From Thiorhodovibrio winogradskyi (lineage in GTDB: Bacteria > Pseudomonadota > Gammaproteobacteria > Chromatiales > Chromatiaceae), in NCBI RefSeq assembly GCF_036208045.1, contig NZ_CP121472.1, positions 2,801,531-2,865,530 on the forward strand: a stretch of DNA of 64,000 bases, written 5' to 3'. The position numbers and the translations under genes are program-made. This document shows positions 4,058 through 27,706 of this stretch, piece after piece (within the stretch, counting starts at the first letter, position 1; each line of letters begins with the position of its first letter). The notes beneath the pieces are model-generated. The model did not search any database, was not told where the DNA came from, and was given only the letters and a program-made list of their open reading frames with translations.

Positions 4058-5527
4058 CTAAGCCGATAGCGCGCGAGACGCGGCGTTGGCAGCACCCTCG
4101 GTGTCGGTGTGCCAGTCGGCATGGGCTTGCCTGAGCGCGACCTTGATGGGAAGGCCGCTCTCGGCACTCAGCGGTCTTATTCCCTGGCGCTCCAGTCGCT
4201 GCCAGGCATTGAAACCAATACGGGTGCAGAGCAGGGCGTCGCAATCCTTAATCAGCTTGATGACCTCCGTGACCTTAGCCTCCGCGACTGGGTCTTGGCT
4301 TAGGTGCGAGGGCAAACCTGAAACCGGGCGCGTCTCGGTCAGGCGAGAGCTCTGGCCGTCAACCTGATAGACGCGCAGCACCTCGACTTCACTCAAGCTT
4401 TGGTCGATGCGCTGGCCATCACTGCTGGCCAGCGCGACGCGAAAGCTTGCCGCGGAGGATGCGAGCTTGGCCCGCCCTACCTGCGCCGCCGGCGATCCGC
4501 CAACCCCAGGCTTGGGCTGCGTCAGTGAGGTCAGCGACACCAGAACGGGCTGGAGTGACTTGGCTGTGCGTGCGGCTTCGATCTGGGCGCGCAACTGGGC
4601 ACGGCGCGCCATGGCCGCGACAGGATCGATCTCGAGCTTTTCGATGCGCTCGAGTGTGAACTCATCGTGGCGATCCTGACCGAGCATGCCAATGGCATCG
4701 GCGCGGCACTGCCGGCAGTGACTCATGATCTCCATGTCATTGGCGCAGGACTGTTGCACCGCGTGCAACTCCTTGGCGCTCGGCGCGCGTTGACCCATGA
4801 GCCCGAAGAAGGTGCCATGCTCGGGCTCGGCGATCAGCGGCATGATGTTATGGAGAAAGGCGCCTTTCTGCTTGACAATACGGCTGACCTCGGCCAGATG
4901 CAGGTCATTAACGCCAGGAATGAGTACCGAATTGATTTTGACCAGCACCCCGCGTTCAGCCAGCATCTCCAGGCCCATGAGTTGCTGCTCAATTAGAATG
5001 GCGGCCGCTTTGGCGCCGCGAATGCGCCGGTGTTGCCAAAAGATCCAGGGGTAAATCTGCGCGCCAATGTCCGCGTCCACACAGTTGATGGTGATGGTGA
5101 CGTGGTCGATGTTGTGCCGACAAAGTTCATCCACATGCTGGGGCAGCATCAGGCCATTGGTTGAAACGCATAGACGAATATCCGGAGCTTTCTCGGTCAA
5201 GGCCGCGAAGGTGGCGAAAGTGCGCTCCGGGTTGGCCAACGGATCGCCGGGTCCGGCAATACCAAGGACCGTGAGTTGGGGAATCTCGGCCGCGACGGCC
5301 AGGGTCTTCTTGACCGCCTGCTCCGGCGTCAAGAGTTCAGAGACCACGCCTGGGCGGGATTCGTTGGCGCAGTCGTACTTGCGATTGCAGTAGTGACATT
5401 GAATGTTGCAAGCCGGCGCCACGGCCACGTGCATGCGCGCATAATGATGATGCGCATCTTTCGAGAAGCAGGGATGATCGCGGATTTTCTCCCGCACCCC
5501 GGACGAATCAACAACCTTCAACTCCAT
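4058..5527 (-). CDS. nifB: Nitrogenase cofactor biosynthesis protein NifB with NifX-like tail
   Basis: The protein has 489 residues. Residues 1-310 are the radical-SAM core with ligands Cys40, Cys44 and Cys47 (PACNIQCHYCNRKYDC) and the downstream HCRQCRADAIGMLGQD stretch. Residues from about 370 form a C-terminal NifX/NafY-like domain (FRVALASSDG, VEVLRVYQVD, CDALLCTRIGFNAW, PIKVALRQ). NifB fuses two 4Fe-4S units with a SAM-derived carbide to make NifB-co, precursor of the nitrogenase active-site cofactor. A linker of about 40 residues rich in Ala/Ser/Pro separates the domains. It is the first gene of the operon and is preceded by a clear sigma-54 promoter and a NifA site. Confidence 0.97.
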   Translation of the reverse strand: MELKVVDSSGVREKIRDHPCFSKDAHHHYARMHVAVAPACNIQCHYCNRKYDCANESRPGVVSELLTPEQAVKKTLAVAAEIPQLTVLGIAGPGDPLANPERTFATFAALTEKAPDIRLCVSTNGLMLPQHVDELCRHNIDHVTITINCVDADIGAQIYPWIFWQHRRIRGAKAAAILIEQQLMGLEMLAERGVLVKINSVLIPGVNDLHLAEVSRIVKQKGAFLHNIMPLIAEPEHGTFFGLMGQRAPSAKELHAVQQSCANDMEIMSHCRQCRADAIGMLGQDRHDEFTLERIEKLEIDPVAAMARRAQLRAQIEAARTAKSLQPVLVSLTSLTQPKPGVGGSPAAQVGRAKLASSAASFRVALASSDGQRIDQSLSEVEVLRVYQVDGQSSRLTETRPVSGLPSHLSQDPVAEAKVTEVIKLIKDCDALLCTRIGFNAWQRLERQGIRPLSAESGLPIKVALRQAHADWHTDTEGAANAASRALSA

Positions 5528-16724: not shown

Positions 16725-17352
16725 TCCGGCCTCTGATCTAGACCCTGATCTGGACCCTTATCTTGATCGGGCTTCGACCTCGCAGCCAGACAAGACCGCC
16801 GGGTCCGATGCCCTCATCATCGGACTCGGCAACCTGCTTCTAAGCGACGAGGGCGTCGGCATCCATGTCCTGCGCCTGCTCGAACGCGACTTCAACTTCA
16901 CGCCCCGGGTTGAGTTGGTCGACGGCGGCACCACCGGCCTCGACCTGCTCGCACTCTTTCAGGATCATGATCTTATCCTGCTGATCGACGCCATCTTCGC
17001 ACCCGACATGGCGCCCGGCGAGATTCAGATCCTGCGCAACGAAGCCATTCTGGCGGCCTTGTCAAAAAAACTGTCCATGCACCACCTGGGCATCAGCGAC
17101 GTGCTCGCCCTCGCGCAACTACTCGACTATCGACCGCGCGAGATCGTCCTGCTCGGCGTAGTTCCCGAGAATCTGGAACTCGGCACCGAGCTGTCCGCGC
17201 CCGTTGCAAAACAACTGCCCAATATTCTGTCCGGCCTCCAAGGAGTTCTCGGCGATTGGTGCATTGCGATGCAGGCACATCAGCCCGACCGCACTGCCCC
17301 ATCTACCAAGGGAGCTGCACTCTTTCTCGGCAAGAGGCCCGACGCCCATTGA
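16705..17352 (+). CDS. hybD: Hydrogenase maturation endopeptidase (HybD type)
   Basis: The protein has 215 residues. It contains LIIGLGNLLLSDEGVGIHVL, the nickel-sensing Glu/Asp motif region of the HyaD/HybD/HoxM protease family, then VDGGTTGLDLL, DAIFAPDMAPGEI and HHLGISDVLAL with the metal-binding His. It cleaves the C-terminal extension of the large subunit once nickel is inserted. The only start available before the conserved core is GTG 16705, which overlaps hybC by 20 bp and adds a low-complexity leader rich in Asp-Pro-Leu repeats. That leader and a long C-terminal tail make it larger than the usual 160-170 residues. Confidence 0.92.
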   Translation: MSIPISNPASDLDPDLDPYLDRASTSQPDKTAGSDALIIGLGNLLLSDEGVGIHVLRLLERDFNFTPRVELVDGGTTGLDLLALFQDHDLILLIDAIFAPDMAPGEIQILRNEAILAALSKKLSMHHLGISDVLALAQLLDYRPREIVLLGVVPENLELGTELSAPVAKQLPNILSGLQGVLGDWCIAMQAHQPDRTAPSTKGAALFLGKRPDAH

Positions 17353-17521
17353 TCTGGAGCCAGTTGACCGGAATGTCATGATGAAAATAGCGTGGCGTCC
17401 CATGCAAAGCTCGATATGTGAAGTCGGCACGAAGCGCCCCGTACAGCCGTGTTAAATCGGACCGATCGAGCCACTCTCCCAAAAAATCAAGCAGCTCCAC
17501 TGCGCCCGATCGACCCTGCAA
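17303..17521 (-). CDS. Small hypothetical ORF downstream of RiPP precursor 1
   Basis: This 72-residue frame would need a TTG start (17521); the frame stays open upstream into the end of the RiPP precursor 1 gene. The composition looks coding-like (ELLDFLGEWLDRSDLTRLYG, RALHGTPRYFHHDIPVNW) but I do not recognise a family. The 3' end overlaps hybD on the other strand by 50 bp. It could be the tail of a degraded gene or a small protein co-transcribed with the precursor. Function unknown. Confidence 0.3.
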   Translation of the reverse strand: MQGRSGAVELLDFLGEWLDRSDLTRLYGALRADFTYRALHGTPRYFHHDIPVNWLQINGRRASCRERVQLPW

Positions 17522-17553
17522 TAAGTGATCAGCTAGGAATTTAAGCTCATCTC

Positions 17554-17970
17554 TTACCAGCCCGAGAAAAAACCGCCGACCGCACTGAACAGCTTTGGCG
17601 CAACCTGCTGACTCAGATGGTTGCCTGTGAAATGATCGACACCCGCCACTATACCGAGGGTCATTCCGGCGACAGGTAGCGCGGTCACGGCCGCGGACCC
17701 CGCACCTGCAAATAACGCAGGAGCAGCACCGCCTGAAACATTATCCAAGGCGTCTTCCGAGAGCTCATTTTGATACTCTTGGTAGTGTTCGAAAATTTCC
17801 AACATGAGCTGTCCGAATTGATGCACAGTGTCATGAGACACATCAAACCCGCGCGCTTCAGCGACACTGACAACCGCATCGGCATTTGCCCCCCCCAACT
17901 CTTTGTATACCTCAGGTTCATTGTCGGCCAGGTCTTTTAAAAACACTGCAAAACCTTCGATATCCGCCAT
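17554..17970 (-). CDS. Nif11-leader RiPP precursor 1, cysteine-free core
   Basis: The protein has 138 residues. Residues 1-80 form a Nif11-like leader (GFAVFLKDLADNEPEVYKEL, then an acidic helical part) ending in a double-glycine site within LDNVSGG. The core of about 57 residues is hydrophobic, rich in Ala/Gly/Val, has no Cys and ends FFSGW. The start ATG at 17970 has GAGGTG five bases upstream, the same leader context as its neighbour precursor. Nif11 leaders normally guide ribosomal peptides to modifying enzymes and C39-peptidase exporters; none is visible within the window. The product is probably an exported or membrane-active peptide, unmodified at cysteine. Confidence 0.8.
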   Translation of the reverse strand: MADIEGFAVFLKDLADNEPEVYKELGGANADAVVSVAEARGFDVSHDTVHQFGQLMLEIFEHYQEYQNELSEDALDNVSGGAAPALFAGAGSAAVTALPVAGMTLGIVAGVDHFTGNHLSQQVAPKLFSAVGGFFSGW

Positions 17971-18170
17971 AATTACACCTCAATAGTCATTGCCATGTTT
18001 GTTTATTCAACTCCGCGCCCGGATAATTCCATTTTAACTAAACGTCCACCATGACTTGGCGGGAAATTGAAAGGTATTAAAACAAGGATTATCCATTTCC
18101 AGTTCATCATCAAAGTGCAGCGCAATGAAAAAGCGAAACCTGAGCGCAAGCCTAGCAGAACGCCTTGCTA

Positions 18171-18557
18171 TTAAAGCCAGCCAAACACCTTATCACGAAA
18201 GAAGGCACCAGTTGCCTCGCTAACCTTACCGCCGGTCATTCGATCAACAGCAACCGCTATGCCAAACGCGCTCGCGACTGGAGCCAATGCCACCGGCGCC
18301 GCCGCGACAACTGCTGGGGCAGCCCCACCAGAGACAGCCTCGAGATCTGCCTCGGCCAATTCTTGTCTACTGCGCTGCTCGATTTCAGCCTTGATGAACT
18401 GTCCAGCCTGCTTGACATCATCAGCAGTCAACTCCACACCCCGCATGGACGCTACCTTTGCCACCATCTCGGCATCTAAAGTGACCAGTTCATTGAGTAC
18501 CTCAGGTTCTTTTTCAGCTAATTCATTCACAAAGGATAAAGCCATATCAAGACTCAT
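18171..18557 (-). CDS. Nif11-leader RiPP precursor 2, cysteine-free core
   Basis: From ATG 18557 the protein has 128 residues; GAGGTG lies just upstream, so I prefer this to the ATG four codons earlier. The leader (SLDMALSFVNELAEKEPEVL, then GVELTADDV) ends LEAVSGG. The core of about 50 residues starts AAPAVVAAAPVALAPVA and ends FRDKVFGWL with no Cys. It shares with precursor 1 the GGAAPA start, a central VD-x2-TG-x3-S element and an aromatic FGW/SGW end, so the two are paralogues with diverged cores. Convergent genes and 200 bp separate it from precursor 1, on the same strand. Confidence 0.8.
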   Translation of the reverse strand: MSLDMALSFVNELAEKEPEVLNELVTLDAEMVAKVASMRGVELTADDVKQAGQFIKAEIEQRSRQELAEADLEAVSGGAAPAVVAAAPVALAPVASAFGIAVAVDRMTGGKVSEATGAFFRDKVFGWL

Positions 18558-19113
18558 AACACACCTCATTTACAAAAAACGGCAGACCATTTCTTGTTCG
18601 TTCTCGACTTTCTAGCAAAGCCATTGGTATTATACACTATGCTATATTTTCCCAAATAAAGCCAAAAAAATTTTCAGCTCAGCAAAAATATTTTCAGCTC
18701 AGGCCTCCCCATCCGTGTTACCGCAAAGGCGTCATTGCCGAACATCCTAGTCGGCGCCCATGACTGCTGAACAAAGATTTTCGATGATAAGGATTCCTTG
18801 CTTTCAAGACTACCTCGGCTATGATTCCAGAATTCACTCGAGCTGATATTGCAATCAGTCAGGTATCTTGATCTTTTCGTGCACCTCGACAGTGATGAAG
18901 CAGACTTAGTTGATTCGAGAATATGTCGCTGAACAGTCACAATATTCTTATCTGGAAACGCATCCCAATAGGACAACAAATCTTTCGCAAATTAGCGCTA
19001 CGAAACTCAGACTGAATACGAAGCTGCATGCGAAATGAATGGTCAAACAATAAAGGCGGTTTCAACTGAGCTTGCTCCGAGGATAAGGGAATATATTATG
19101 TCCAAAAAACGCC
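18558..19113. other. AT-rich intergenic stretch upstream of RiPP precursor 2
   Basis: No recognisable gene is present. The base composition is clearly more AT-rich than the surroundings. A 12-bp direct repeat TTTTCAGCTCAG occurs at 18671-18682 and 18691-18702, 20 bp apart. A 101-residue frame on the minus strand (18674-18979) is Ser-rich with no family resemblance and no ribosome site, and is not called. The promoter of the precursor 2 gene presumably lies in 18560-18660, where TATACACTATGC-like AT stretches occur. Confidence 0.6.
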
Positions 19114-19242
19114 TTAGCTTTTCCGCAACCACGCACGCGTGTCAGTGCCTTCGACAAACCGATAGCCGGTGATTTGTCGATCAAGACATTGGTACTGATC
19201 CGGATTCAGGCCGGCTTGCAGCAGTGTGACTGGCACATTCAA
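19114..19242 (-). other. Open frame directly behind the antiporter stop codon (42 codons)
   Basis: After the TAG stop of the cation/proton antiporter gene the same frame stays open for 42 more codons, beginning LNVPVTLLQAGL and ending in DTRAWLRKS. The stretch looks like real protein (YQCLDRQITGYRFVEG) rather than random sequence. It could be the remnant of a longer antiporter C terminus after a nonsense mutation, a small separate gene starting at TTG 19240-19242, or chance. No family is recognised. Confidence 0.3.
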
Positions 19243-20985
19243 CTACTTCACGACGGGTTCTCCGGCACCCTCCGGCACTTCCTCGCGCACCAGCGCATAG
19301 TCAGTGCCACGTACGTTGTTCAGCAGCATGTCGACCTCCTGAGTTGCGAGACCAAGTGCCCCCAGGGCCTCGGCCGCCAGACGCAGACTGGCCTCGACTG
19401 CTTCCGGAAAGGCCTGGGTGGCGCCGGCGCGCAGGAGCGCATCACAGGTGGTAAGATCGCGCGCTCGTGCAACAATTTTCACATCAGGTGCATACGCGCG
19501 AACCAGTTGGGTGGCATTGATGGCGGCGCGCTGATCGTCGATCGTTAGAACTACCAGATCAGCGCGTCCGACCTCCGCCGCTTCCAGCAGATGCGGATCA
19601 CAGATGTCGCCATAGTACACAGGACAACCTTCACGTCGCCAGTTCGCGACCAACTCCGGATTGGACTCGAAGGCGACGTAGGAAATACCGTGCCCAGTCA
19701 GAATGGCCCCTATGGTATGGCCAACACGCCCGAACCCAGCAATGATGACGCGCGGAGCAGGCGAGCCGCTCGCGCGTCCGATGAGGCGCAGCGAGCCATC
19801 GACGCCGTCTTTGTCGGAGGGGTCACTTTGGGCTAACTTTTCACCCTGGGCGACAAGCAACGGCGTGAGCAGCATGCTCACGGAGATCACCGCCACGATG
19901 AGGACAAAGGTTTGATCATCAATGAGTCCAAGCAGCTTGGCGGCGCCAAATATGACGAAACCAAACTCCCCGGACTGGGACAGCATGAAAGCGACACGCA
20001 ATGCCGCGGCACGCGCCACGCCGAATAACAGGCACAGGCGATAAAGCACCAGAATTTTAATCGCTAGAATGCCCGCCAGGTACAGGATGAAGTACCAGGG
20101 ATGCTGGACCAAAACACCAAGATCGACCGACATGCCGACAGCAACAAAAAACAGACTCATCAGTAACCCCTTGTGGGGCTCCACCAGCGCCTGAATTTGC
20201 AGACTGAAGCGGCATCCCGAAAGCATCACCCCCATCAGGAAGGCGCCCAGCGCCATTGACAGTCCGGCATAGTCCATGGCCGCGGCCGCCAGAAAAACCG
20301 ATGCCAGCACCACCAGAAAAAAGGCGTCGCGATTGCCCTGGCGTGACAGTTGCACCAGCACCCAGGGCACCAGGTAACGACCCACCAGAATCACCCCGCT
20401 GACCAGCGTCACCACGGTACCAAGCTGTTGCCAAAGGGGAATTTCCTGTGGCAGCGGACCGGTGTCGGCGAGCACGGGCATCAGTGCCAACAGCGGCACC
20501 ACGGCGAGATCCTGCATCAGCAGCACGGCGAAAGCGGTCTGCCCATGACAGCTCGCCATGTCGCCACGTTCCTGCAGCATCTGTACCACCAGCGCGGTGG
20601 AGGATAGGGCAAGGCTCATGCCGATCAGCAGCGCGGTCGACCAGTCGGGCTGAAACAACCGAAAGTAGACCGCTAGTGCCAGCCCGGTGAGCAAAACCTG
20701 CAGTGAGCCCAGGCCAAAGAGGGTGCGGCGCAGTTCCCACAGGCGCCCCGGATGCATTTCGATGCCGATGACAAAGAGCAGCAGCACCACGCCCAACTCG
20801 GCAAAATGGCGTAGATCCTCGACACTATTGGTAATTGAAGGCCCTGGCGTATGCGGCCCCAAAAGCACGCCCGCAACCAACAGACCGAGAATCGAGCCCA
20901 AGCCAAAATGGCGAAAAATGGCCACCGCAAGCGCCGCGACCACCAGCAGCCAGACCGCCGAAGTAACGAAAGATTCAGTGGCCAT
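19243..20985 (-). CDS. CPA2-family monovalent cation:proton antiporter with RCK domain (KefB-like)
   Basis: The protein has 580 residues. Residues 1-390 form about twelve membrane helices of the Na+/H+-exchanger fold (SILGLLVAGVLLGPHTPGP, LLFVIGIEMHPGRLW, the MALGAFLMGVMLSG motif, MLSQSGEFGFVIFGAAKLLG). Residues from about 408 form a TrkA-N/RCK NAD-binding domain with GFGRVGHTIGAIL. The protein should exchange K+ or Na+ for protons at the inner membrane, gated by nucleotide or redox signals. It lies 4 bp after pssA in the same direction. Assignment to KefB, KefC or YbaL type cannot be settled by reading. Confidence 0.92.
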   Translation of the reverse strand: MATESFVTSAVWLLVVAALAVAIFRHFGLGSILGLLVAGVLLGPHTPGPSITNSVEDLRHFAELGVVLLLFVIGIEMHPGRLWELRRTLFGLGSLQVLLTGLALAVYFRLFQPDWSTALLIGMSLALSSTALVVQMLQERGDMASCHGQTAFAVLLMQDLAVVPLLALMPVLADTGPLPQEIPLWQQLGTVVTLVSGVILVGRYLVPWVLVQLSRQGNRDAFFLVVLASVFLAAAAMDYAGLSMALGAFLMGVMLSGCRFSLQIQALVEPHKGLLMSLFFVAVGMSVDLGVLVQHPWYFILYLAGILAIKILVLYRLCLLFGVARAAALRVAFMLSQSGEFGFVIFGAAKLLGLIDDQTFVLIVAVISVSMLLTPLLVAQGEKLAQSDPSDKDGVDGSLRLIGRASGSPAPRVIIAGFGRVGHTIGAILTGHGISYVAFESNPELVANWRREGCPVYYGDICDPHLLEAAEVGRADLVVLTIDDQRAAINATQLVRAYAPDVKIVARARDLTTCDALLRAGATQAFPEAVEASLRLAAEALGALGLATQEVDMLLNNVRGTDYALVREEVPEGAGEPVVK

Positions 20986-22177: not shown

Positions 22178-22702
22178 ATGACCATGCAACGCGCCCGCCC
22201 GAGCCTGCCCAGCAACGATAAGCGCTGGAAGCTCGTTAACGCCACCATGCGCCGCTCGGGCTACGCCGAGCATGCGCTGATCGAGGCCCTGCACAGCGTG
22301 CAGGATGCTTTTGGCTATCTTGATGAAGACGCGATGATCTTTGTCGCCGACTCCCTGGACCTGCCGCTGAGCAAGGTGTTCGGGGTGGCGACCTTCTATC
22401 ACCTGTTCATGCTCAAGCCCCAGGGCCGGCATAGTTGTGTGGTCTGCACCGGGACGGCCTGTTACATCCAGGGCGCGGGCGCGCTGATCGAAGGGCTCGA
22501 GCAGCGCTTCGACGTCAATCCGGGCGAAACGACGGAAGATGGCGCCCTGTCGGTCATGACGGCGCGCTGTGTCGGCGCCTGCGGGCTGGCCCCGGCGGTG
22601 GTGATCGACGGCCAGGTCTCGGGCAAACTCGACAGCAACGCCCTCAATGCCAAGCTTGCCGGGCAGATCAAGGGGCAGATTAGGGAGGAGATCGCGCAAT
22701 GA
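22178..22702 (+). CDS. hoxE: Bidirectional NAD-linked hydrogenase, diaphorase subunit HoxE
   Basis: This 174-residue NuoE-type 2Fe-2S protein has cluster ligands in CTGTACYIQGA and ARCVGACGLAP, a thioredoxin-like fold. The N-terminal helical part includes FGYLDEDAMIFVADSL and FGVATFYHLFML, standard for HoxE/NuoE. It forms the diaphorase module with HoxF and HoxU and is a possible electron entry or exit point. It starts the hox operon, with its stop overlapping the hoxF ATG by 4 bp. Confidence 0.95.
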   Translation: MTMQRARPSLPSNDKRWKLVNATMRRSGYAEHALIEALHSVQDAFGYLDEDAMIFVADSLDLPLSKVFGVATFYHLFMLKPQGRHSCVVCTGTACYIQGAGALIEGLEQRFDVNPGETTEDGALSVMTARCVGACGLAPAVVIDGQVSGKLDSNALNAKLAGQIKGQIREEIAQ

Positions 22703-24321
22703 ATGTGGATGACCTCGAAGAACTCGCTGATCTGCACCGCCAGGAGCATGCCGCGGTCAAGACGGAAATCCGCGTCTGCACCGCCGCAAGCTGTCAGTCC
22801 TCCGGTGCCCAGCCGGTGCTGGAGGCATTGACCGCCGGCTGCGAGGCCAGTGAGCATCCTGGCTGTCGTGTGAAGCAGGTCGGCTGCATGGGGCTATGTT
22901 CGGCCGGGCCTTTGGTGGCGATCGCCGCCAAGGACGCGCCGCTTGATCAGGCTCAACTCTATCGCGATGTCACCGCCGCCGATGCACCGGAGATCCTGAC
23001 CAGCGCCAAGACCGGCGCGCCGGTTGAGCGCCTGCACTGCCCGATCGACATGCCCTTTTTCGCTCGGCAGCAGCGGATTGTGCTGGAAAACTCAGGCGTT
23101 GTTGACCCCAATAGTTTCAAAGGCTATGTGGTCCTTGGCGGCTACCGCGCCATGGTCCAGGCGCTCACTGAAATGACGCCCGCCGAGGTCATTGCCGAGG
23201 TCACCACCAGCGCGCTGCGCGGACGTGGTGGCGGCGGCTATCCCACGGGTCTGAAGTGGTCGACCGTGGCCAAGATGCCGGCGGGCCAGAAATACGTCAT
23301 CTGCAATGCCGACGAGGGCGATCCGGGCGCTTTCATGGATCGCGCCATTCTCGAGTCCGACCCCCACCGGGTGCTGGAGGGCATGGCCATTGCCGCCTAT
23401 GCGATCGGCGCGAACAAGGGCTTTGTCTACATCCGCGCCGAATATCCGCTGGCCGTGGAGCGGCTCAAGACCGCGATTCGCAAGGCCAAGCGTGCCGGCT
23501 TCATTGGTCACCATATCTGCGAGACCGAGTTTAACTTCGACATCGAAATCCGCCTTGGTGCCGGTGCCTTCGTCTGTGGCGAGGAAACCGCGCTCATGGC
23601 CTCGATTGAAGGCGGTCGTGGTCAACCACGGCCGCGGCCGCCCTACCCGGCCGAATCCGGCCTCTGGGGCTGCCCCACGCTGATCAACAACGTCGAGACC
23701 TATGCCAACATCGCCCCCATTGTGCGCGACGGCGGCGACTGGTTTGCTGGCATCGGCACCGAGCGCTCCAAGGGCACCAAGGTGTTCGCGCTCGCGGGTG
23801 CCATCTGCAACACCGGCCTGATTGAAGTGCCCATGGGCACTCCGCTGCGCGATATCATAGAAGACATTGGCGGCGGCATTCCGGGCGGCAAGGCCTTCAA
23901 GGCGGTGCAAACCGGTGGCCCCTCCGGCGGCTGCATCCCCGAGGCCCATCTTGACATCCCGGTCGACTACGACAGCTTAAAGACGCTCGGCACCATCATG
24001 GGCTCTGGCGGTATGATCGTCATGGACGAGACCTCCAGCATGGTCGAGGTGGCGCGCTTTTTCATGGAATTCTGCATGTCGGAGTCCTGCGGCAAGTGCA
24101 TTCCCTGCCGCGCCGGCACCGCGCAGATGCACGGGCTGCTCGACCGGATCGTCAAAGGCGAGGCAGGCGCCCAGGAGCTTGCCCTACTCGAGGAACTCTG
24201 CGAGGTGGTCCAGGCCACCAGCCTATGCGGGCTGGGGCAAACCGCACCTAATCCGGTGCTAAGCACCCTGCGCTACTTCCGCGCGGAATACGAACAGCGG
24301 CTACTCGATCAGGCCGCCTGA
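22699..24321 (+). CDS. hoxF: Bidirectional hydrogenase diaphorase subunit HoxF
   Basis: The protein has 540 residues. Residues 20-110 form a thioredoxin-like 2Fe-2S domain (RVCTAASCQSSGA, VGCMGLCSAGP). The NuoF-like core follows, with the NADH/FMN-binding ALRGRGGGGYPTGLKW and CNADEGDPGAFMDR, and the 4Fe-4S site ESCGKCIPCRAGT with a late Cys in SLCGLGQ. It oxidises NADH or reduces NAD+ in the cytoplasm. The ATG overlaps hoxE by 4 bp. After it the operon is interrupted by a zinc-ribbon gene before hoxU, which is not the standard order. Confidence 0.96.
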   Translation: MNVDDLEELADLHRQEHAAVKTEIRVCTAASCQSSGAQPVLEALTAGCEASEHPGCRVKQVGCMGLCSAGPLVAIAAKDAPLDQAQLYRDVTAADAPEILTSAKTGAPVERLHCPIDMPFFARQQRIVLENSGVVDPNSFKGYVVLGGYRAMVQALTEMTPAEVIAEVTTSALRGRGGGGYPTGLKWSTVAKMPAGQKYVICNADEGDPGAFMDRAILESDPHRVLEGMAIAAYAIGANKGFVYIRAEYPLAVERLKTAIRKAKRAGFIGHHICETEFNFDIEIRLGAGAFVCGEETALMASIEGGRGQPRPRPPYPAESGLWGCPTLINNVETYANIAPIVRDGGDWFAGIGTERSKGTKVFALAGAICNTGLIEVPMGTPLRDIIEDIGGGIPGGKAFKAVQTGGPSGGCIPEAHLDIPVDYDSLKTLGTIMGSGGMIVMDETSSMVEVARFFMEFCMSESCGKCIPCRAGTAQMHGLLDRIVKGEAGAQELALLEELCEVVQATSLCGLGQTAPNPVLSTLRYFRAEYEQRLLDQAA

Positions 24322-24380
24322 GTGTCTTAGACTTAAGACCAAACCCATCCAGATAACAACACGATAACGGTGAGCGATCA

Positions 24381-24890
24381 ATGGCACTGATTCAATGCCC
24401 CGAATGCGAAGGCAAGGTTTCCGATCAGGCTCCGGTCTGTCCCCACTGCGGTTTTCCGCTTGCTGGCCCGGCGGCGGCATCGCCGGTAACCACCGACACG
24501 ACAAGCATGGCTCCGGGAGCCGCCAGCGGTATTTCGCAAGAACCACTGTCCGAGTCCGCCTATCCTGGCAAACCCTATCACTGGTCAGACCGAATTCCGG
24601 TCGCCTTCATCCTGTTCTGGGGCGGCATGCTGATTGGCGTCATGGGCGGGGGCGGCGACATGACCGAGAGCCTGTCCGGTCATGGCGTGCAGGTCGCGGA
24701 ACGCACCACCATTGGTTGGATTGCCTGGGGCATGGTCATCGGCGGCATTGTCTGGTTCGTGGGGAAAAATCTCCTTTCCTACCTGCACTACCGCAACTGG
24801 AAGATCAATCGCCTGCACAAGGAAATGATCGAGGACGCCGAGCGCGAGGAGCAGGCCAGCGCCGGCAACACCGCCGCGGCACACGACTGA
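24381..24890 (+). CDS. Zinc-ribbon membrane protein inside the hox operon
   Basis: The protein has 169 residues. An N-terminal zinc ribbon uses Cys6, Cys9, Cys20 and Cys23 (CPEC and CPHCGF). A Ser/Thr/Pro/Ala linker of about 45 residues follows, then two predicted membrane helices (VAFILFWGGMLIGVMGG near 70-90; IGWIAWGMVIGGIVWFVG near 107-127) and a charged cytoplasmic tail with KINRLHKEMIEDAEREEQ. It starts 59 bp after hoxF with GGTGAG upstream and is followed by hoxU 48 bp later, on the same strand. I know of no hydrogenase role for such a protein. Membrane attachment of the Hox enzyme or a stress-sensor role are guesses. Confidence 0.8.
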   Translation: MALIQCPECEGKVSDQAPVCPHCGFPLAGPAAASPVTTDTTSMAPGAASGISQEPLSESAYPGKPYHWSDRIPVAFILFWGGMLIGVMGGGGDMTESLSGHGVQVAERTTIGWIAWGMVIGGIVWFVGKNLLSYLHYRNWKINRLHKEMIEDAEREEQASAGNTAAAHD

Positions 24891-24938
24891 AGGTCCGCCA
24901 CCGCGACTTAACTCGCCACCTCTCCCGGAGTTTCTTGC

Positions 24939-25670
24939 ATGCCATTGCCGACACCCCAGAGTTCGGTCCGCGTCGTCACCATGAAGGTCAACGGCCTGGA
25001 TCTGTCCGCCCGCGAGGACGAGACCATCATCGAGGTGTGCCGGGAAAACCAGATCCCCATCCCCAGTCTGTGCTATCTCGATGGCTTGTCCATCCTCGGC
25101 GGCTGCCGCCTGTGCCTGGTGGAACTCGAAGGCCAGAACCGCCTGTTCGCCGCCTGCTCAACCCGCGTTGCCGAAGGCATGCGAGTGGTGACCAACAGCG
25201 AGCGCCTGCGCCACTATCGCCGCACCATTGTCGAGCTGCTCTTTGCCGAGCGCAATCACGTCTGCTCGGTGTGCGTCTCCAACGGTCATTGTGAACTGCA
25301 GAATCTCGCCCAGGGCTGTGGTGTGAATCATGTACGCATGCCCTATCGCTACCCGCACTACGAGGTCGACAGCTCTCATGAAATGTTCCGCGTCGATCAC
25401 AATCGTTGCGTCCTTTGCACCAGATGCGTGCGGGTATGCGATGAGATCGAAGGCGCCCATACCTGGGATGTCATGGGCCGCGGCAGCGACTGTCAGGTGA
25501 TCACCGATCTGGCGCGCCCCTGGGGGGACAGCAACACCTGTACCAGTTGCGGCAAATGTGTGCAGGTCTGCCCAACCGGCGCGCTGGTCAAGCAGGGCAC
25601 TTCCGCCGGGGAAATGGTCAAAGACCAAAGCTTCCTGCCTATTCTCGCCCGCCGGAGACACCTGCGATGA
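24939..25670 (+). CDS. hoxU: Bidirectional hydrogenase diaphorase subunit HoxU
   Basis: This 243-residue NuoG N-terminal-like iron-sulfur protein has a 2Fe-2S domain with [17 protein letters not shown] and ACSTRV, the His/Cys cluster region [15 protein letters not shown], and two 4Fe-4S motifs ([11 protein letters not shown] and [15 protein letters not shown]). It carries electrons between HoxF and the HoxYH hydrogenase. GGAG lies about 11 bp before the ATG. Its stop overlaps the hoxY start (ATGA). Confidence 0.95.
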
Positions 25671-26272
25671 GCACGCCCACCAATGTGCCGGTCAACAACC
25701 CAAGCAGCAACCAGATCAGCTTCCCAAGCAGTATGGGCAACCCTAGAATCACAGTGGCCACCGCCTGGCTCGACGGCTGCTCAGGCTGCCACATGTCCTT
25801 TCTTGACATGGATGAGCGCCTGATCGAGCTGGCCAGTCATATCGACATCGTCCATGGCCCGCTGGTCGACACCAAGGAACTACCTGCGCAGGTTGATCTC
25901 GGCATCCTGGAGGGCTCGGTCAGCAATGACCATGACCTGGCCACTGCCAAGGCTTTTCGCAAACACTGCAAACAGCTGATCAGCCTTGGCGATTGCGCGG
26001 TCAACGGCAATGTCCCGGCAATGCGCAATGCCTTCAAGCTCGATGCCGTGATTGAGCGCGCCTACCGCGAGAATGTCGATCTCAACCCGCAGATTCCGGT
26101 CGATGGCGTGCCGCGCCTGCGCGAGGTGGTGCTGCCCCTGCATGGGGTGGTGGAGGTCGATCTCTTCGTTCCCGGCTGCCCACCACCGGCGGATGCCATT
26201 TATTATGTCTTGAGCGAACTCATCGCCGGGCGCACCCCGGATCCCAATCAACTGACCCGCTTTGGCGCCTAA
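25667..26272 (+). CDS. hoxY: Bidirectional hydrogenase small subunit HoxY
   Basis: From ATG 25667, overlapping the hoxU stop, the protein has 201 residues with a short Asn/Ser/Pro-rich leader and no Tat signal, as expected for a cytoplasmic enzyme. The proximal 4Fe-4S ligands lie in [24 protein letters not shown] and [12 protein letters not shown]. It is paired with HoxH, which starts 3 bp after it. Confidence 0.95.
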
Positions 26273-26275
26273 ATC

Positions 26276-27706
26276 ATGAGCCGCACCATCACCATCGAGC
26301 CGGTTACCCGCATCGAAGGGCACGCGCGCATTTCCCTGCAACTCGCCGACACCGGCGAGGTGGAAGATGCCCGTTTTCATCTGACCCAATTTCGCGGCTT
26401 TGAGAAATTCTGCGAGGGCCGCCCTTACCGGGAGATGCCAGCGCTGACCGCGCGGACCTGCGGCATCTGCCCGGTCAGCCATTTGCTCGCCTCCAACAAA
26501 GCCTGCGATGACCTGCTCGCGGTCAGCATTCCGCCGACCGCCGAGAAGCTGCGCCGAGTGATGAACCTGGCCCAGCTGGTGCAGTCGCACGCGCTCTCCT
26601 TCTTCCATCTATCCTCACCCGACCTGCTACTGGGCTGGGATGCCGATCCCCAAAGCCGTAATGTCTTTGGTGTCATGCAGCAGTACCCGGACCTGGCCAG
26701 GGACGGCATCCGTCTGCGCCAAATCGGCCAGACCATCATCGAGATTCTGGGTGGCAAAAAAATCCACCCCACCTGGGTGGTGCCCGGCGGCGTCAGCGAA
26801 CCACTCTCCGAGGAGAAACACAAGGCCATCCAGACAATGCTGCCCGAGGGGCTGGAAATCGCCAAGCGCACCTATGCCAGTTTCAAGACCCTGCTGCCCA
26901 AGTTCAAGGACGAGGCCAGCCACTTTGGCAACCTGCCAACCCTGTTCCTGAGCCTGGTCTCGGAGACGGGCCAGCTTGAGCACACCACTGGCCTGCTGCG
27001 GGTGAAAGACGCCCAGGGTCGCATCATCGAGGACAAGGTTCCGCCGCGTGACTACAAGCGCCTGATTGGCGAGGCGGTGGAGGACTTCTCCTACATGAAG
27101 TTTCCCTACTACAAGCCCATGGGTTATCCGCGCGGCATCTATCGCGTCGGCCCCCTGGCGCGGCTGAACAACGCCGACTCCTGCGGCACTCCTTATGCCG
27201 ATGTCGCCCTGGCCGAATTCCGCACCCTGCAGGAAGACGCGGGTCCGGTGGCTTCCAGTTTTCACTATCACTACGCGCGGCTAGTGGAAATCATCCATGC
27301 CATTGAGCGTATGCAGCGGATTCTCAAAGAGCCCGACATTCTCGATACCCGGGTGCGCGCTCATGCGCGGGGCAACCGCGAGGAGGGGATTGGCGTGTCC
27401 GAGGCACCGCGTGGCACTCTGATGCACCATTACAAGATTGACGAGCACGGCCTGATTAAATGGGTGGATCTCATCATCGCCACCGGCCATAACAACCTGG
27501 CAATGAACCGCAGCATCAAGCAGGTCGCCGATGCCTATGTCGATGGCAATCAACTCAAAGAGGGCATGCTCAACCGCGTCGAGGCAGTGATTCGCTGCTA
27601 CGATCCCTGTCTGTCCTGCGCCTCGCATGCCTTCGGACAAATGCCACTGGTCATTGAGCTCAAGGATGCAAGCGGAGAAGTGATTGATCGCCTCTGTCGC
27701 GACTGA
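26276..27706 (+). CDS. hoxH: Bidirectional hydrogenase large subunit HoxH
   Basis: The protein has 476 residues with NiFe ligands in ARTCGICPVSHLL and YDPCLSCASH, and the N-terminal signature IEPVTRIEGHARI. After the final His a 24-residue C-terminal peptide (starting AFGQMPLVIEL) is the extension to be removed by HoxW. It contains the H2-activating site of a cytoplasmic NAD(P)-linked hydrogenase that can act in either direction, likely balancing redox under dark, fermentative or nitrogen-fixing conditions. Confidence 0.97.
   Translation: MSRTITIEPVTRIEGHARISLQLADTGEVEDARFHLTQFRGFEKFCEGRPYREMPALTARTCGICPVSHLLASNKACDDLLAVSIPPTAEKLRRVMNLAQLVQSHALSFFHLSSPDLLLGWDADPQSRNVFGVMQQYPDLARDGIRLRQIGQTIIEILGGKKIHPTWVVPGGVSEPLSEEKHKAIQTMLPEGLEIAKRTYASFKTLLPKFKDEASHFGNLPTLFLSLVSETGQLEHTTGLLRVKDAQGRIIEDKVPPRDYKRLIGEAVEDFSYMKFPYYKPMGYPRGIYRVGPLARLNNADSCGTPYADVALAEFRTLQEDAGPVASSFHYHYARLVEIIHAIERMQRILKEPDILDTRVRAHARGNREEGIGVSEAPRGTLMHHYKIDEHGLIKWVDLIIATGHNNLAMNRSIKQVADAYVDGNQLKEGMLNRVEAVIRCYDPCLSCASHAFGQMPLVIELKDASGEVIDRLCRD

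Follow-up and report, generated by a model that had tools for sequence, protein, structure and literature searches.

Two divergent Nif11-type double-glycine precursors with cysteine-free cores and a distant candidate exporter in Thiorhodovibrio winogradskyi

Thiorhodovibrio winogradskyi encodes two neighbouring peptide precursors, N1 and N2, which are real, divergent members of a known precursor family, apparently added in this lineage, and not a new type of system. As judged from their sequences, their leaders share homology with those of the Nif11 type, although they have diverged from them. We consider it rather probable that N1, N2, and a third paralogue, N3, are orphan double-glycine (GG) precursors of the Nif11/NHLP export system that are cleaved and exported in trans. 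The genome is a single contig (C1) of 5,478,625 bp, and the window, the whole stretch of 64,000 nucleotides that was analysed, corresponds to C1:2801531-2865530.

The coordinates of both ORFs and their position on the minus strand were confirmed, and the gene order on that strand is N2, then N1. N1 (17554..17970) is an intact ORF of 138 aa with an 81-aa leader (17728..17970) and a 57-aa core (17557..17727; AAPALFAGAGSAAVTALPVAGMTLGIVAGVDHFTGNHLSQQVAPKLFSAVGGFFSGW). N2 (18171..18557), also intact, has 128 aa, with a leader of 78 aa (18324..18557) and a core of 50 aa (18174..18323; AAPAVVAAAPVALAPVASAFGIAVAVDRMTGGKVSEATGAFFRDKVFGWL). The ATG at 18557 was chosen as the start of N2 over the listed 18569 because GAGGTG sits upstream of 18557. 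The putative ribosome sites, GAGGTG at 17976..17981 (N1) and 18562..18567 (N2), had been described as having an identical context; GAGGTGT is common to both, but the gap from GAGGTG to the ATG is 5 nt in N1 and 4 nt in N2, and the contexts are thus similar, not identical. Both leaders end in L-x4-L-x2-VSGG, and other features of the preliminary description were borne out. VSGGAAPA, comprising the VSGG site and the AAPA core start, is present in both precursors, VD-x2-TG-x3-S reads VDHFTGNHLS in N1 and VDRMTGGKVS in N2, and the aromatic Gly-Trp tails are GGFFSGW and FFRDKVFGWL, respectively. The cores contain no Cys and are hydrophobic, with G+A of 37% and GRAVY of 0.83 in N1, and 38% and 0.92 in N2. 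No promoter-like site was found on the coding strand, and one was found on the opposite strand versus 2.1 expected. Directly 3' of N1, a 72-aa ORF with a TTG start (17303-17521, minus strand) overlaps the end of hybD on the opposite strand; it had no Pfam match at E 0.1. A tandem 20-nt pair, 95% identical, is located in the AT-rich region 5' of N2 (18663-18702).

N1 and N2 are paralogues, with an identity of 43% in the alignment and 39% by blastp (133 columns, two-sequence E 1.5e-22). Their leaders gave an alignment score of 120, whereas none of 1000 shuffles exceeded 52. The proposed paralogy of the cores also stood: they scored 63 versus a maximum of 57 and, without their first five residues, 54 versus 41 (1000 shuffles each). 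N3 (C1:1976754-1977170) lies in the same genome away from N1 and N2, and its core also has no Cys. The N1 leader is 52% identical to that of N3 and 42% to that of N2, whereas the N1 core scored 38 against N3 and the above 63 against N2. A leader nearer to N3 but a core nearer to N2 fits precursors with separately evolving cores. The core likeness was modest between N1 and N3 (equalled by 9/1000 shuffles) and weak between N2 and N3 (35/1000). Near N3, a 375-aa ORF (L012:10979-12106) carries a Transposase_20 (IS110 group) domain; a 375-aa ORF near an NHLM locus of the genus mate G076 (L074:13872-14999) shows one difference from it in the first 45 residues.

The assignment of the leaders to the Nif11 type was upheld by profile comparison but not by the family models. 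TIGR03798 scored N1 at 23.5 bits (E 5e-5), N2 at 21.1 (E 2.7e-4), and N3 at 16.7, below its cut-off of 32.3, and PF07862 matched N1 only (E 0.087, 13.6 versus a cut-off of 23.8). However, a profile-profile alignment (hhalign) over leader and GG with nine Nif11-type precursors, some of which are themselves under the cut-off, reached 96.8% (E 2e-10). N1 and N2 resemble the Nif11-derived peptides (N11P, TIGR03798) and their NHLM export system (Haft, Basu and Mitchell 2010, PMC2887384) in leader type, GG site, paralogous expansion, and a C39/ABC2/HlyD exporter in the genome. They differ in falling under the model cut-offs, in being unlinked, and in having cores that lack Cys, are rich in Gly/Ala, and end in an aromatic tail with Trp.

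AlphaFold2 predicted the N1 leader to be helical, with block-mean pLDDT values of 70-83 for residues 1-60. The core had a pLDDT <50, its structure was not predicted, and a Foldseek search of the PDB gave no fold match at E 0.001. This AlphaFold2 picture, a helical leader and then low confidence, agrees with the NMR findings on a proteusin leader (PMC10858898). For the C39 domain of LahT, it is reported that residues -4, -7, and -12 matter and that very different cores are tolerated (PMC6363468). V-4, L-7, L/M-12, and VSGG are present in the leaders of N1, N2, and N3, and we counted this fit to the LahT rule in favour of recognition by a C39 domain.

The distant double-glycine protease and exporter that had been suggested as a check were found 1.26 Mb from the pair. 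The genome has one C39 peptidase match (PF03412, at a threshold of E 0.001), borne by the NHLM transporter ABC1 at C1:1557.6-1559.9 kb. ABC1 scored 1059.8 with TIGR03796 (cut-off 853.3), and adjoining genes scored 870.7 with TIGR03797 (cut-off 709.4) and 327.6 with TIGR03794 (cut-off 156.2). ABC1 starts with LLQMEATECGAAAL at its N terminus and further on contains NHFLVL and NDP, which we take to be the usual places of the C39 catalytic residues. The locus comprises ABC1, ABC2, HlyD, a radical-SAM gene, and, upstream, two Nif11 precursors (TIGR03798 32.7 and 41.2 versus the cut-off of 32.3), with a second radical-SAM gene behind ABC2. A further set lies 13-22 kb beyond the exporter, at C1:1572.8-1581.8 kb (L004:2769-11780): TfuA, YcaO, LanM (DUF4135 and LANC_like), and then five tandem NHLP precursors, whose cores all lack Cys and in four cases are V/T/A-rich. 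A LanM adjoining Cys-free NHLP cores is odd. The genome holds 15 Nif11-/NHLP-type candidate precursors, namely, N1-N7 plus eight matches of the NHLP type, of which two fall under the cut-off. A precursor ending in AYAAPSWFGNPNSW/GAW is kept near the exporter in this genome (G000) and in the genus mate G028 (L091 1390-1911, L070 451-954).

The preliminary description had also stated that no processing genes lie within 17 kb of the pair. A local scan with a crude ORF finder (>=90 aa, 642-37040) yielded 34 ORFs besides the pair, two of them without any family, and no LanM, YcaO, or C39 gene was among them. However, a radical-SAM gene, nifB (4058-5527; radical SAM and Nitro_FeMo-Co domains), is within that distance, and NifB is a nitrogenase cofactor maker. 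nifQ is located at 2165-2842. The lack of processing genes holds for the window only; the genome as a whole does encode them. A second hydrogenase set (22178-27706; NuoE-, NuoF-, NuoG-, Oxidored_q6-, and NiFeSe_Hases-type) lies 5 kb from the hyb operon.

The exporter and N11P matches that run to the GG end were associated in the family genomes searched. TIGR03798 matches were found in 11/116 family genomes. In five of the 11, the best match reached the GG end, and all five had an exporter above the cut-off. In the other six it was shorter (ending at position 50-54 in five and 67 in one), and none was listed with an exporter, as scored against 18 exporter-listed genomes and assuming that the six were in that sample (Fisher 0.002). 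Exporter-bearing genomes without a TIGR03798 match exist, for example, the genus mate G076; therefore, the link between exporter and N11P is not a strict one.

From these observations, we infer cleavage and export in trans, as well as pairing and membrane activity. The N-terminal helical bundle and L-x4-L helix of the leader would dock on the C39 domain of the distant exporter, which would cut after GG. The 50-57-residue cores would then exit by way of ABC1/ABC2-HlyD and a channel in the outer membrane. They may act on competitor membranes in a similar manner to class II microcins or to class IIb bacteriocins of the two-peptide kind. The two precursors probably function together, and the composition of the cores suggests that they are probably membrane-active. 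For the prochlorosins, Nif11 precursors scattered over a genome have been described (PMC10783134), and the syncA system is alike in that such dispersed Nif11-leader genes share one distant machinery; however, LanM acts on the prochlorosins, whose rings are Cys-based.

Comparisons with known antimicrobial peptides bear on this scheme. Class IIb bacteriocins have Gram-positive producers and short leaders, the leader of class II microcins is about 15 aa, and circular bacteriocins combine a short GG-less leader with dedicated cyclisation and membrane genes. The earlier likeness to circular bacteriocins was rejected: N1 and N2 have a long C39-type GG leader (78-81 aa), and a scan of 34 neighbouring ORFs revealed no recognisable cyclisation gene. 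The pair resembles class IIb bacteriocins (lactobin A/cerein 7B, TIGR03949) in its GG leader, hydrophobic Gly-rich core, and paired genes. However, neither precursor passes the TIGR03949 cut-off of 21.5 bits, with N2 just under it (21.2) and N1 clearly under it (17.7). When the N2 core was shuffled five times, the score fell to 13.5-16.4 in four cases and was unreported in one; shuffled N1 was reported in 0/5. Class II microcins (PMC9746304) are alike in combining a GG precursor, a C39 exporter, and an HlyD-type adaptor in Gram-negative producers, and this genome has both the C39 exporter and the HlyD-type adaptor. They differ in that no immunity gene was seen here and in the 78-81-aa leaders of N1 and N2. 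Nothing next to the pair was recognisable as an immunity-like gene, and the hybD-kefC interval holds only N1 and N2 as recognised genes. Microcin immunity proteins have little or no sequence similarity (PMC9746304).

The preliminary description had named a lack of core conservation in relatives as counting against it, and within the family this was largely the case. A search of 194 family genomes with model A2 at E 0.001 gave nothing beyond this genome, with the other 193 consisting of two genus mates and 191 further genomes. This near-absent conservation does not indicate selection beyond the three paralogues. Plasmids gave no N1 or N2 match, and phages no N1 match. One viral and two genome-contig scans found no relative; the contig scans require exact short leader patterns and may miss divergent relatives. 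An order search at E 0.05 produced 16 weak matches in 15 other genomes (best E 0.0055), with 15/16 in ORFs >270 aa or stop-containing frames and the remaining one in a 56-aa frame. Weak matches to three other genomes arose in the class search (369 genomes), and two of these, in ORFs of 804 (G525) and 505 aa (G433), were dropped. The phylum search (398 genomes) added two others, G699 (1.1e-5) and G836 (3.5e-9, 1.9e-5). The matches in G404 (L077), from the class search, and G699 (L093) cover the region around leader and GG only, and the ORFs have the appearance of usual Nif11/GG precursors. We found no paper in the open-licence literature on Nif11 in purple sulfur bacteria or on Azospirillum with proteusin and LanM.

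G836, which belongs to another class, has a linked cluster in the order HlyD, ABC1 (999.5 bits), ABC2, and four Nif11/VSGG precursors (P1-P4), followed by an FAD_binding_4 oxidase and an outer-membrane efflux protein. P1 and P4 are over the TIGR03798 cut-off, and P2 and P3 under it. The cores of P1 and P2 are Gly/Ala-rich and Cys-free, that of P3 is Cys-free and hydrophilic, and that of P4 contains a single Cys. Each of the four precursors terminates in [FL][FVL]K[KQ]W. A profile comparison with the G836 precursors (A2-A5) reached 96.3% (E 1.9e-9, columns 32-136), and the tail GGFFSGW of N1 compares with GNFFKKW of P1. In 12 core comparisons of N1-N3 with P1-P4 (1000 shuffles each), N3-P3 was equalled by 1 shuffle, N1-P4 by 9, N1-P1 by 17, N3-P2 by 41, and the other eight by at least 65, with a best value of 87 for N2; core-to-core homology with G836 is unproven. 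Directly 3' of the G836 exporter, a 93-aa ORF (L095:9011-9292) has no GG site, ends in GFLKQW, similar to the ends of P1-P4 behind it, and gave a weak HPr match under the cut-off.

Trp tails also occur elsewhere. We applied an ORF filter to 12 plasmid records, taken from 21 that carry a similar exporter. In pAB510a of Azospirillum sp. B510 (L097), seven hydrophobic NHLP cores, five of which are Cys-free, end in Trp <=9 kb from an NHLM exporter, and an eighth candidate does not; these arrays are alike in their cores but differ in having nitrile-hydratase-type leaders, a class named in PMC6363468. Pseudanabaena has one Nif11 core ending in IKW beside LanM, and in the remaining ten records the filter found no core ending in Trp. 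In T. winogradskyi, W is among the last six residues in 10/15 precursors versus 3/83 other predicted genes (4/9, p 0.0014, when the NHLP array and N1-N3 each count as one). Among 50 cores from 14 sources, a Trp tail was present in 18/24 long hydrophobic cores versus 6/26 others (p 0.0005); this count left out one row with a GA site (L104 1759-2547), 7/20 scanned loci gave the filter no candidate, and the filter misses some GG ORFs. The p value was 0.012 without L097, and 0.14 (4/8 versus 3/19) without L097 and G000. The association was spotted post hoc and leans heavily on two genomes. We tentatively suggest, with considerable doubt, that N1-N3 and the G836 peptides form an unrecognised Nif11/NHLP subclass of membrane peptides with little or no modification, with either leader type and variable cores; most would lack Cys, and many would be rich in Gly/Ala. 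Their aromatic-Trp tail (GxFFxxW, [FL]xKxW, RKW/AKW/IKW) would then be a conserved functional element, either a follower for a Trp-tailoring enzyme or a membrane or receptor anchor.

The main rival to export of unmodified orphan precursors is that N1 and N2 are RiPP precursors modified in trans before export, either by the distant island enzymes (radical SAM, TfuA-YcaO, LanM) or at the C-terminal Trp. The enzyme genes lie within about 22 kb of the exporter, Cys-free NHLP cores sit beside LanM in this genome, and the Pseudanabaena core shares that setting. Modifying enzymes are recruited through L-x4-L as well (PMC12715784, PMC10858898), and a brominated C-terminal Trp in a proteusin and a geranylated core Trp in a Nif11-leader peptide have been described. 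However, the enzyme genes of the island occur in linkage with other precursors, the scanned genes of the G836 cluster offer no candidate besides the FAD oxidase, and the cores contain only seven (N1) and four (N2) Ser/Thr. In agreement with the preliminary description, the cores of N1 and N2, and likewise that of N3, are unlike lanthipeptides and sactipeptides; with 0 Cys, they have no lanthionine or sactionine bridges. Modification of N1 and N2 is unproven, and we regard it as unlikely.

The genomic setting bears on the origin of the pair. The spacer between hybD (hydrogenase protease, plus strand, ending at 17352) and a kefC-like gene (19243-20985, minus strand) spans 17353..19242. Its GC content of 0.485 (mean 0.606, sd 0.028) is the lowest versus all 622 equal-size sliding windows. 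Synteny of hybD and kefC extends to both genus mates, where the spacer between them is occupied by a pair of histidine-kinase genes (G028) or a single hybrid kinase (G076); each of these kinases has HisKA and HATPase_c domains. In T. winogradskyi, a 3' remnant of a sensor histidine kinase remains (19112..19242, minus strand), where G028 has a 1441-aa ORF with these domains; positions 19112-19224 are 80% identical to L024:13379-13491 of G028. The pair looks lineage-specific because its spacer has the lowest GC and sensor kinases occupy the same place in both sister species. The remnant and the GC content further suggest that the pair entered this lineage and was not lost in the sisters, and this entry probably occurred into a hypervariable hybD-kefC spacer. 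Adjoining the remnant, a 78-bp fragment (19014-19091) is 83% identical to two other genome sites (L081, L082), at which copies adjoin a small ORF encoding a DUF4258 domain; it is possibly a toxin-antitoxin remnant.

The same setting would suit a relic without function that was acquired recently and lies in a spacer undergoing decay, given the lowest GC in the window, the kinase remnant and repeated fragment adjoining the pair, and its absence from both genus mates. However, both ORFs are intact and each has a GAGGTG ribosome site, and the cleavage site, L-x4-L, and core motifs were kept despite divergence to about 40% identity; we find a relic quite improbable. A non-secreted role as cytoplasmic Nif11-domain proteins, for example, linked to nitrogen fixation through nifB and nifQ at 12-15 kb, is very improbable, because those genes are not adjacent to the pair and VSGG with C39 recognition spacing and a hydrophobic core typify exported peptides.

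Searches that start from modification enzymes or linked clusters miss orphan precursors such as N1 and N2. If export in trans is true, some fifteen candidate GG precursors of this genome would share a single exporter, and the Trp-tailed hydrophobic cores would represent a testable class of products beyond the microcins of Enterobacterales.
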